NCBI GenBank assembly: GCA_016181525.1
Contig: JACOZD010000014.1
Location: 1-41,547 of the forward strand
Reading direction: 5' to 3'
Source: Candidatus Tayloriibacteriota bacterium
GTDB taxonomy: Bacteria > Patescibacteriota > Minisyncoccia > Phycocordibacterales > JACOZD01
Length of the DNA: 41,547 bases
Position 1 is the stretch's first letter; each line of letters begins with the position of its first letter. Position numbers and translations under genes: made by a program. Positions 23,329-26,374 of this stretch are shown piece by piece. The notes under the pieces were generated by a model, which had not been told where the DNA came from, did not search any database, and saw only the letters and a program-made list of their open reading frames with translations.

Positions 23329-25002
23329 ATGTCCATCCATTTCGAGGAGGAGAAACAGACAGAAAAGCTGGAAGAACTGCGCAAGCGTGAAGCCGAGACT
23401 CTGGCCGAGACTCTGGCCGAGAAGTATCGCCTCCCCTACGCCAACCTCGGGCCTGTGCCCGTTGACCCCGACGCCCTCCGAGTTCTCCCCGAAAAGGAGG
23501 CCCGGGAGGCCATGCTCGCTCCCTTCAATCTGGTGAACAAGAAACTCCACGTCGGCGTCCTCTCGCCCGAAAACGAAAAGACGGTTACCGCTTTAAACAC
23601 CTTGAAGGAGCGCGGCTTCGAACCTCTGCTATTTATGGTCTCGGAGGAGAGTCTGGAGAAGGTTTGGTCGAAGTACGCTGACCTCTCCTATGCCGTCGAG
23701 GTTCGCGGCGGCGCCATCGAGATTGGCAGCGCCGAGGTGGAGAAACTCCTCCGCCAAATCAAAACCATTGCCGACGTCGCCCGATTCATCGAGGAGACGC
23801 TCAAGGAGGAAAGAAGTTACAGAACCACGCGCATCCTCGAAATCATTCTGGCCGGAGCCCTCGCCACGGCGGCCTCCGATATTCATCTCGAGCCGGAAGA
23901 GAAATATGTGCGGGCGCGACTGCGCCTGGACGGCGTTCTCCAAGACCTCCTCAACCTCGACCGCGAGACCTACACTCTCCTCCTCTCGAGAATCAAGCTC
24001 CTCTCCGGACTCAAACTGAACGTCACGGCCGAGGCCCAGGACGGGCGCTTTAGCGTGGGACTTGGCGGGAGCGACATCGAGATTAGAACCTCGATTCTCC
24101 CCGGCGCCTACAACGAGTCGGTGGTGATGAGGGTCCTCAACCCCAAAAGCATCGCCGTGCCTTTGGAGGAGCTCGGCATCGAGGCGGGCCTCCTAGCCAT
24201 CCTCGAACGCGAGATTGCCAAACCCGACGGCCTGATTTTGACCACCGGTCCCACCGGCTCGGGCAAGACCACCACTCTCTACGCCTTTCTCAAAAAAATT
24301 CACAAACCGGAGGTCAAGATTATCACCATCGAGGACCCTATCGAGTACCATCTGCCCGGCATCGTCCAAACGCAGGTTGAGGCCGAGGAGAATTACACCT
24401 TTCTCTTGGGACTCCGCTCGGCCCTCCGCCAGGACCCGGACGTCTTGATGGTCGGCGAGATTCGAGACAAGGAGACGGCCGCCACAGCCATCGACGCCGC
24501 CTTAACCGGCCACCTCGTCTTTTCGACACTTCATACCAACAACGCCGCCGGCACCTTTCCTCGGCTCATTGACCTCGGCGTCAATCCCAAAATCATTTCC
24601 TCGGCCTTAAGCGCAGCTATGGCCCAGCGGCTCCTGCGGAAACTCTGCCCGGAGTGCAAAAAGGTACTCAAGCTTTCGGCCAAAGAAAAAGAGACGATTG
24701 CCAAAGTCTTGGAGGGCGTTGACCCCAAAGAGTATGGGGTCAAGGAGATAAAAATCTTTGAGGCGGTCGGCTGCCAGAGGTGCAACGGCACCGGTTATAA
24801 GGGTCGGACCGGCGTCTACGAGGCCATTCTGACAGATGAGCGCGTTGAAAAAGCGATAACCGCGAACCCCAGCGAACGAGAAATCTGGAAGGCGGCCAAG
24901 CCCCAAGGTATCTTGTCTCTCCGTCAGGACGGGATTATTAAGGTTTTGAAAGGGATTACCTCTCTGGAAGAGCTCGCTCGAGTTCTAGACGTTGAAGGTT
25001 AA
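23329..25002 (+). CDS. Type IV pilus assembly ATPase (GspE/PilB family)
   Basis: A 557-residue secretion ATPase. The N-terminal MshEN-like region (about 1-130) is followed by the N2 domain (SDIHLEPEEKYVRARLRLDG) and the motor. The motor has Walker A GPTGSGKTTT (about 307-316), Asp box TIEDPIEY, Walker B LRQDPDVLMVGEIRD and His box HLVFSTLHTNN. Four Cys in CPEC (about 438) and CQRC (about 481) form the zinc site seen in PilB/GspE. It powers pilus extension; CPR cells use type IV pili to contact hosts and take up DNA. No other pilus gene is visible here. Full length for the family. Confidence 0.94.
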   Translation: MSIHFEEEKQTEKLEELRKREAETLAETLAEKYRLPYANLGPVPVDPDALRVLPEKEAREAMLAPFNLVNKKLHVGVLSPENEKTVTALNTLKERGFEPLLFMVSEESLEKVWSKYADLSYAVEVRGGAIEIGSAEVEKLLRQIKTIADVARFIEETLKEERSYRTTRILEIILAGALATAASDIHLEPEEKYVRARLRLDGVLQDLLNLDRETYTLLLSRIKLLSGLKLNVTAEAQDGRFSVGLGGSDIEIRTSILPGAYNESVVMRVLNPKSIAVPLEELGIEAGLLAILEREIAKPDGLILTTGPTGSGKTTTLYAFLKKIHKPEVKIITIEDPIEYHLPGIVQTQVEAEENYTFLLGLRSALRQDPDVLMVGEIRDKETAATAIDAALTGHLVFSTLHTNNAAGTFPRLIDLGVNPKIISSALSAAMAQRLLRKLCPECKKVLKLSAKEKETIAKVLEGVDPKEYGVKEIKIFEAVGCQRCNGTGYKGRTGVYEAILTDERVEKAITANPSEREIWKAAKPQGILSLRQDGIIKVLKGITSLEELARVLDVEG

Positions 25003-25004
25003 AG

Positions 25005-25275
25005 ATGCTCTAAAGCGAAAAAGTGGAAAACTGCTCTTGCGGCCGGGGAGGAGGCCGGTAAGATGGCAAAAAGGAATCGAGGGCATGAATCTCTAAGCAA
25101 TACTTTTGAACAAGTTCAAAAGTTAAACGTTTAATCTAAGGAGAGACCCCGCGCCGAGCCGAAACTCGGACCGGACCATCCTCGATAAAACGTCAGAAGG
25201 CCTCTCGACCCCATTGCTTAGAGAGTCATGCCCTAGACTAAACACTAAACCGCAGAGACTAAAGCAAGTCTAGCA
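25005..25275 (+). ncRNA. Candidate structured RNA between the pilus ATPase and ruvB
   Basis: A 286-base gap with no convincing gene holds strong, nested pairing. A 21-base helix joins 25081-25101 with 25213-25233 (20 of 21 paired) and encloses a perfect 9-bp hairpin ACTTTTGAA-CAAG-TTCAAAAGT (25102-25123). It also encloses a CCGAG / CTCGG hairpin near 25154-25169. A separate CTAGACT / AGTCTAG stem follows (25233-25239 and 25266-25272). It could be a free small RNA or a ruvB leader. I could not match it to tmRNA, 6S, SRP or RNase P RNA. A short frame reading KWKTALAAGEEAGKMAKRN crosses the 5' part but lacks a good start. Confidence 0.5.
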
Positions 25276-25288
25276 TAAATTATCATCA

Positions 25289-26335
25289 ATGTCAAGAATA
25301 AGCAAAACCCTTAAAGGGCCGAAAAAAGAGGAAAAAGAAATACCGGCAGAACCCGCTCCGACGCCCTCCGACCGCGAATTTTTGGACACGGCTCTGCGGC
25401 CAGCCGCCTGGGACGAGTACGTCGGCCAGAAAAACATCAAAGAGAATCTCCTGATACTCCTGACCGCCGCTAGCGAGCGCTCTCATCCGCCCGAGCACCT
25501 CCTCTTTTACGGCCCGCCCGGCCTCGGCAAGACCACTTTGGCCCACCTGGTGGCGCGCCAGTGCGGCGCGCCTATCAAGGTCACCTCCGGCGCCGTCATA
25601 GAGAAAGTCGGGGACCTGGCCTCCATTCTTACCAACCTCTCGTCCGGCGAGGTCCTTTTTATAGACGAGATTCACCGTCTGAACAAGACCATCGAGGAGG
25701 TTCTCTACCCGGCCATGGAGTCCGGCTTTCTCGACATTGTCATCGGCAAGGGGCCATCGGCTCGAACTATCCAACTCGAGCTCCCGGCCTTTACTTTGGT
25801 CGGAGCCACCACCCGCGTGGCTCTGCTCTCCTCGCCTCTGCGCTCGCGCTTCTCGGGCGGCATCTTCCGCCTGGAGTACTACAGCCAAGATGAGATTGAG
25901 GAAATTCTCCGCCGCTCGGCCAAGATTCTCGGCGTCAAACTCGAAGGGACGGCTGTGACCGAAATCGCCAAGCGCGCCCGCTCCACCCCCCGCACCGCCA
26001 ACTATCTTCTCAAAAGAACCCGGGACTACGCCCAGGTCAGAGGCCGCGCCGTCTCGGTTAAGCTCGTGCGGGAGGCCCTCTTACTTCTCGGCATCGACGA
26101 GCAGGGTCTCTCGCCCGCCGACCGCAAACTTCTCTCTCTCTTGGCGGAGAAGTTTGGCGGCGGGCCGGTCGGCCTGGGGACTCTGGCGGCCGCGCTCTCG
26201 GAGGAGGAAGAAACTATCGAAGAATTCCACGAACCTTACCTTATGCAAATTGGCTTCATCGCCCGCACCCCGCGCGGCCGCGTCCTCACCGCCCGCGGCC
26301 TCGAGCACGCCGGCCGCCGCACCTTAGGAATTTAA
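25289..26335 (+). CDS. ruvB: Holliday junction DNA helicase RuvB
   Basis: A 348-residue AAA+ motor that drives branch migration with RuvA. Walker A GPPGLGKTTLAHLVA (about 74-88), Walker B VLFIDEIHRLNK, sensor 1 TLVGATTRVALLSSPLRSRF and a C-terminal winged helix (IGFIARTPRGRVLTARG) are present. The Lys/Glu-rich first 30 residues are an unstructured extension before LRPAAWDEYVGQ. It is followed by yebC and ruvC on the same strand. Confidence 0.96.
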   Translation: MSRISKTLKGPKKEEKEIPAEPAPTPSDREFLDTALRPAAWDEYVGQKNIKENLLILLTAASERSHPPEHLLFYGPPGLGKTTLAHLVARQCGAPIKVTSGAVIEKVGDLASILTNLSSGEVLFIDEIHRLNKTIEEVLYPAMESGFLDIVIGKGPSARTIQLELPAFTLVGATTRVALLSSPLRSRFSGGIFRLEYYSQDEIEEILRRSAKILGVKLEGTAVTEIAKRARSTPRTANYLLKRTRDYAQVRGRAVSVKLVREALLLLGIDEQGLSPADRKLLSLLAEKFGGGPVGLGTLAAALSEEEETIEEFHEPYLMQIGFIARTPRGRVLTARGLEHAGRRTLGI

Positions 26336-26336
26336 A

Positions 26337-26374
26337 AAGGTAAAATAAGATGCGATCGCATCTTATTTTACCTT
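26337..26374. repeat. Perfect 38-bp palindrome after ruvB
   Basis: The half-site is AAGGTAAAATAAGATGCGA, followed at once by its exact complement with no loop. Its centre is GCGATCGC. It lies 1 base after the ruvB stop. A direct repeat ACCTTGTATCC (26370-26380 and 26386-26396) follows. It may act as a terminator or bind a dimeric protein. Confidence 0.85.

Follow-up and report, generated by a model that had tools for sequence, protein, structure and literature searches.

The window, that is, the whole stretch of DNA analysed (41,547 nucleotides), includes an intergenic gap of 286 bases (25003-25288) between an ORF resembling pilB, which ends at 25002, and ruvB, which is listed with an ATG at 25289. 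The product of the former is a PilB/GspE-family ATPase scoring 453 bits with TIGR02538, which is under the equivalog cut-off. Within the gap lies a conserved RNA, detected at one place in an own-genome search (Table 1). Structured RNA had been proposed for this gap in the original prediction, and this part stands; the unit itself is corrected to the minus strand, from 25238 to 25076 plus a short 5' leader, with a promoter at 25295-25267. Separately, a near-perfect palindrome (AAGGTAAAATAAGATGCGATCGCATCTTATTTTACCTT) between ruvB and yebC (26337-26374) is probably a terminator.

Table 1. Features of the RNA locus and the genes on either side, in window coordinates
Feature	Coordinates	Strand	Remarks
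PilB/GspE-family ATPase (T2SSE), convergent neighbour	23329..25002	+	PF00437, E 9e-114
U-run UCCUUUUUGCC after P1	25062..25075	-	Read from the sequence
Whole conserved RNA, four-way junction, 163 nt	25076..25238	-	R3 match, 116 bits, E 8e-29; R1 match
P1 closing helix, 3' arm	25076..25101	-	Pairs with 5' arm
P4 hairpin (ACUUUUGAAC-uug-UUCAAAAGU)	25102..25123	-	Both-side changes in 9/9 pairs
P3 long arm	25127..25193	-	AGGA/UCCU core, asymmetric internal loop, tandem G-U (CUGG/CUGG) motif
P2 hairpin (GGGGUC-gaga-GGCCUU)	25197..25212	-	Both-side changes in 5/5 pairs
P1 closing helix, 5' arm	25213..25238	-	AUCUCUAAGCAAU-type inner part, conserved across the order
5' leader	25239..25262	-	Start inferred ~5-7 nt past the -10 box
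RNA promoter	25267..25295	-	TTGACA 25295-25290, 17-nt spacer, extended -10 TGC-TAGACT (hexamer 25272-25267)
ruvB, divergent neighbour	25289..26335	+	NF000868, 438 bits, above cut-off

Strand, promoter and probable ends of the RNA gene

The gap folds well in either direction, with z-scores of -8.4 (plus strand) and -9.2 (minus strand) against 200 dinucleotide shuffles, none of which folded as well on either strand. Several observations distinguish the strands. When aligned homologues are read as minus-strand RNA, the paired columns hold 597 G-U cells and 112 A-C cells, roles that would be exchanged on the plus strand, and the folding energy is lower on the minus strand in 95 of 97 loci. Together with the minus-strand promoters described below, these counts and energies indicate that the RNA gene is on the minus strand, divergent from ruvB and predicted to be transcribed away from it, and is no ruvB leader.

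The promoter found by a two-box search is near consensus and of the sigma70 type with an extended -10 element (TTGACA-N17-TGnTAnnnT); in the window, the -10 part reads TGCTAGACT, its last base at 25267. Of 67 related loci, 64 have such a promoter upstream on the RNA strand; the opposite strand has it in 5, and shuffled sequences in 5.5 +/- 2.0. At the loci of a second branch of the RNA (see below), the RNA strand carries it in 30/30 cases and the other strand in 1, so that 94 of the 97 loci of both branches have an RNA-strand promoter. A -10 profile at a fixed distance found nothing in the related loci because leader length varies; the distance from the -10 box to P1 ranges from 7 to 121 nt among relatives. 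Judged from promoter quality alone, expression would be strong and constitutive and the RNA abundant. The -35 box overlaps the listed start codon of ruvB (25289-25295); as homology to the RuvB family starts at about residue 28 of the listed ORF, the true ruvB start may be further downstream.

At the 3' end, P1 and the U-run after it probably constitute a terminator. A U-run immediately 3' of P1 is found in 37 of 97 loci, and a separate terminator-like hairpin within 90 nt past P1 in 22 of 97. A terminator-like hairpin with a U-run also occurs between the promoter and P1 in 9 of 96 loci, where 0.5 would be expected (L004, L007, L008, L013, L025, L118, L123, L126 and L159). It looks as if this element were an attenuator or a cut-off leader of the RNA gene.

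Fold and covariation

The helix of the original prediction (25081-25101 / 25213-25233), 21 positions with one mismatch, extends to about 26 (25076-25101 / 25213-25238) and closes a four-way junction. At least two hairpins had been foreseen within it, in agreement with P2 (25212-25197), P3 (25193-25127) and P4 (25123-25102), whereas a further stem placed outside the helix did not show up in the conserved fold. In an alignment of 73 distinct sequences fitted to the smaller structure of R1, a model built from aligned homologues of the order, both sides change in 52 of the 58 pairs of the junction, counted without regard to kinship. For P1 alone, this holds for 23 of 26 pairs, and 93.7% of cells are paired. 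Compensatory cells number 595 in these 73 sequences vs 172 when shuffled, and 90.0% of cells are paired vs 38-50% when the partners are slid by 1-3 columns. In all controls, the observed covariation was exceeded by 0 of 500 shuffles. The arms of the predicted helix change in step among relatives rather than drift without compensation.

Because the alignment was fitted to the R1 structure, from which P2 and the base of P3 are absent, independent checks on these two elements and by a structure-blind scan matter. A mutual-information scan of this kind, the one analysis in which similar rows were down-weighted, recovers P1, P2, P3 and P4, with the pairs of P2 and of the P3 base ranking high; its top 23 column pairs all fit one nested four-way-junction fold. 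Sequence conservation is lowest in the apical loops (0.16-0.32 bits) and peaks in the P3 core, whose columns average 1.6 bits, and in the inner part of P1, at 1.5 bits. P2 is missing in a few members (L009, L050 and L051). In one sub-branch (L181, L184, L186 and L192-L200), the P2 loop CUAUCUUUUG is almost invariant, which is not so in the rest of the family; this loop is possibly a branch-specific contact.

Distribution and gene order in the class

A DNA search found the arms of the RNA in many of 60 genomes of the order, and further homologues came from 80 ruvB loci of Zambryski-, Kaiser-, Yonath-, Nomura-, Ryan-, Sungi- and Moranibacteria and others, which would place the host in the Paceibacteria/Parcubacteria. 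R1 matches 334 of 397 genomes of the order, representing 161 of 179 genera, at essentially one place per genome; double matches in one genome were, among the rows inspected, the two strands of one place. The other 63 of the 397 genomes gave no R1 match; some of these absences may be due to stricter filters and to genomes being incomplete. In a sample of the phylum, R1 matches 19 of 380 genomes, class members only, 3 of which are from other orders of the class. Gene order at the R1 loci is constant: ruvB is divergent and upstream of the RNA in all 61 loci that reach it, and the PilB-type ATPase is convergent and downstream in all 60 that reach it.

In other orders, ruvB loci that R1 does not match have, at the same spot and behind the same promoter, a 156-176 nt RNA in which a long closing helix surrounds hairpins and the P1 sequence differs from the window type. 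A model of these second-branch RNAs (R2) matches 71 of 286 genomes in a sample of the class. At 30 second-branch loci, ruvB is divergent in 28/28 and the ATPase convergent in 23/23 within reach. With these models, any long perfect hairpin reaches about 20 bits without further likeness; a second-branch match at 20-35 bits is therefore weak evidence in isolation and was accepted only with position, strand, promoter and neighbours. The second branch is deeply diverged and occupies the same slot (pilB> <RNA ruvB>) in other orders of the class.

The locus L164 is matched by R1 and R2 with identical bounds and strand, and L206 scores 60 bits with R1 and 70 bits with R3. In L207, the P1 arm is intermediate (CUGUAGGCAAUU), and the changes that set it apart from the window type (CUCUAAGCAAUU) are compensated. 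Loci matched by both models and intermediate P1 arms join the two branches as one family, which we infer was present in the class ancestor. The original prediction had included neither the minus strand nor the promoter, and neither the four-way junction nor conservation at the same position across the class.

Probable function and relation to known RNAs

An Rfam 15 scan of the window returned three tRNAs and no family at the RNA gap, at gathering or relaxed filters. A gathering scan of 11 related loci returned none, and relaxed scans of the best-scoring relative and of second-branch members returned chance matches only. A search of open-access papers other than preprints found no description of such an RNA. 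On these searches the RNA family itself is judged to be new, in line with the novelty first proposed for it.

The lack of fit to tmRNA, 6S, SRP or RNase P RNA in the original prediction likewise holds. RNase P RNA (RF00010) is encoded elsewhere in 55 of 60 genomes of the order (C1:35188-35557 in the own genome), as is tmRNA (RF00023), above cut-off, in 53 of 60 (C12:6597-6978). For SRP RNA, RF00169 has no match in 60 order genomes and Ffh (TIGR00959) exceeds the cut-off in 0 of the 60, with controls at 14/14; the whole order seems to be without a signal recognition particle. Y RNA was rejected, as Ro60/TROVE is found in 1 of 118 order genomes and none in the own genome, and no Rfam match was obtained; the single TROVE/Ro60-like protein found is at G107:C11:95625-96380. 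Analogies to the folds of T-boxes, group I/II introns and ribozymes were dropped for want of Rfam signal.

The 6S family (RF00013) matches 0 of 60 order relatives, and no match was obtained with the best member (L118) at E<=10 or with the window at E<=5. In 287 sampled Patescibacteria it matches 19, all outside the class, of which 3 are above cut-off. Neither ruvB nor a PilB-type ATPase gene lies close to the 6S candidates found in other classes. Run with filters off, R1 and R3 give no match on the 6S strand where the candidates of L166-L177 lie, and their matches in 6S-candidate loci of other classes are almost only unrelated hairpins. The L166-L177 candidates, mostly below the Rfam cut-off, have a conserved CCCACCU before the 3' hairpin.

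From these features it is concluded that the gap carries a new, class-wide housekeeping ncRNA gene beside ruvB, with a predicted RNA of about 165 nt. Its presence at the same place in nearly all sampled genomes of the order and in many of sister orders suggests that it is probably a basic cell component. Most likely the RNA acts protein-bound, not as a leader or antisense RNA; the loops are least conserved and the helix cores most, which favours protein binding and argues against a loop-seeded antisense RNA. The reading preferred here, with reasonable though limited confidence, is a standalone minus-strand gene for an abundant housekeeping RNA of about 165 nt that would fold into P1, P2, the long P3 and P4 around the junction and act in trans as a protein-bound structural RNA. 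The order of elements, the size, the single copy and a class without recognisable 6S RNA make a 6S-like RNA-polymerase decoy the leading specific guess, held tentatively and at less than even odds. In that case the duplex arms P1 and P3, which meet at the junction and whose helices have conserved irregularities, would keep RNA polymerase, or another core enzyme acting on nucleic acids, occupied.

Close to an even chance is given to a trans-acting structural RNA of a new RNP with a function unrelated to 6S, whose partner might belong to, e.g., replication, recombination, the ribosome or the envelope, and be peculiar to reduced cells. That the four-way junction matches no Rfam family, that RNase P RNA, tmRNA, SRP and Ro60/Y RNA are each excluded or unsupported, and that 6S membership fails all agree with this; however, it makes fewer predictions and names no partner gene, and simple vertical descent could account for ruvB always being next to it. 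In its broadest form, a universal class RNA forming the core of an RNP with a job unlike those of known bacterial housekeeping RNAs, beside ruvB since the class ancestor in cells without SRP or recognisable 6S RNA, the proposal is as likely to be right as wrong.

A highly diverged true 6S RNA, homologous beyond analogy, is unlikely. The distributions are complementary, RF00013 being found only in other Patescibacteria classes and the new RNA only in this class, and both have closing stem, apical arm and 3' hairpin in common order at about 150-165 nt, but there is no cross-detection even with filters off, no common synteny, and a covarying P2 sits in the 5' bubble. Far less probable is a cis-acting attenuator or riboswitch of ruvB, as a plus-strand leader or intercistronic regulator. 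On the plus strand, pilB always precedes the RNA and ruvB follows closely, and this strand folds well too; the G-U:A-C ratio of 597:112, the energies and the promoters nevertheless favour the minus strand, and no conserved unpaired loop is fit for a ligand core. A MITE-like mobile inverted-repeat element or a chance palindrome, suggested by the long near-perfect inverted repeat, can practically be dismissed: each genome has essentially a single such place, its position does not vary among the loci, the RNA is near-universal, and four helices show compensatory changes.

For the protein-bound housekeeping RNA preferred here, the breadth of conservation is of interest, since near-universal presence throughout a class is rare among bacterial RNAs. 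In the Paceibacteria (Parcubacteria), which are mostly uncultured and have reduced genomes, the covariance model allows a conserved gene that is at present blank to be annotated. It also supplies a concrete RNA to seek in metatranscriptomes and offers a handle on basic processes in cells without SRP or recognisable 6S RNA. Should the RNA bind RNA polymerase, it would reveal the extent to which regulation of the 6S type can diverge; otherwise it would point to an unknown RNP. What is new is the RNA family, and a 6S-like mechanism, if true, would be a variant of a known one.

Comparison with known systems yields partial likenesses. Bacterial small SRP RNA (RF00169) is likewise a housekeeping RNA with paired ends, but Ffh and RF00169 were not found in the order. 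Bacterial Y RNA of the YrlA type has a long closing stem under a multi-hairpin module, and the new RNA is built alike; the difference is that Ro60/TROVE is found in just 1 of 118 order genomes, and there is no Rfam match.

6S RNAs are rod-shaped, their arms interrupted and their central bubble largely open, and those of the B. subtilis type have a hairpin just before the 3' closing strand, in the 3' bubble (PMC8876501). The new RNA shares with 6S a terminal closing stem and an apical arm (here P1 and P3; 163 nt vs about 150-200), a single-copy gene, and a layout that runs from the closing stem through an apical arm and a 3' hairpin back to the closing stem (PMC8876501). It differs in that a covarying P2 (5/5 pairs) takes the place of the open 5' bubble, P1 is nearly continuous (24-26 bp) instead of interrupted, inner P1 is conserved in sequence, ruvB and pilB are the neighbours, and no covariance model matches in either direction. 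With the 5' side shut by P2 and P1 almost uninterrupted, membership of 6S is not claimed.

Ms1 RNA of Actinobacteria sets a precedent, being a lineage-specific, synteny-tracked RNA that binds the RNAP core (PMC9130861). With sequence comparison limited to the Rfam scan, the new RNA differs from it in lineage and neighbours; like Ms1, it is lineage-specific, 6S-shaped and tracked by synteny where 6S had not been found (PMC9130861).
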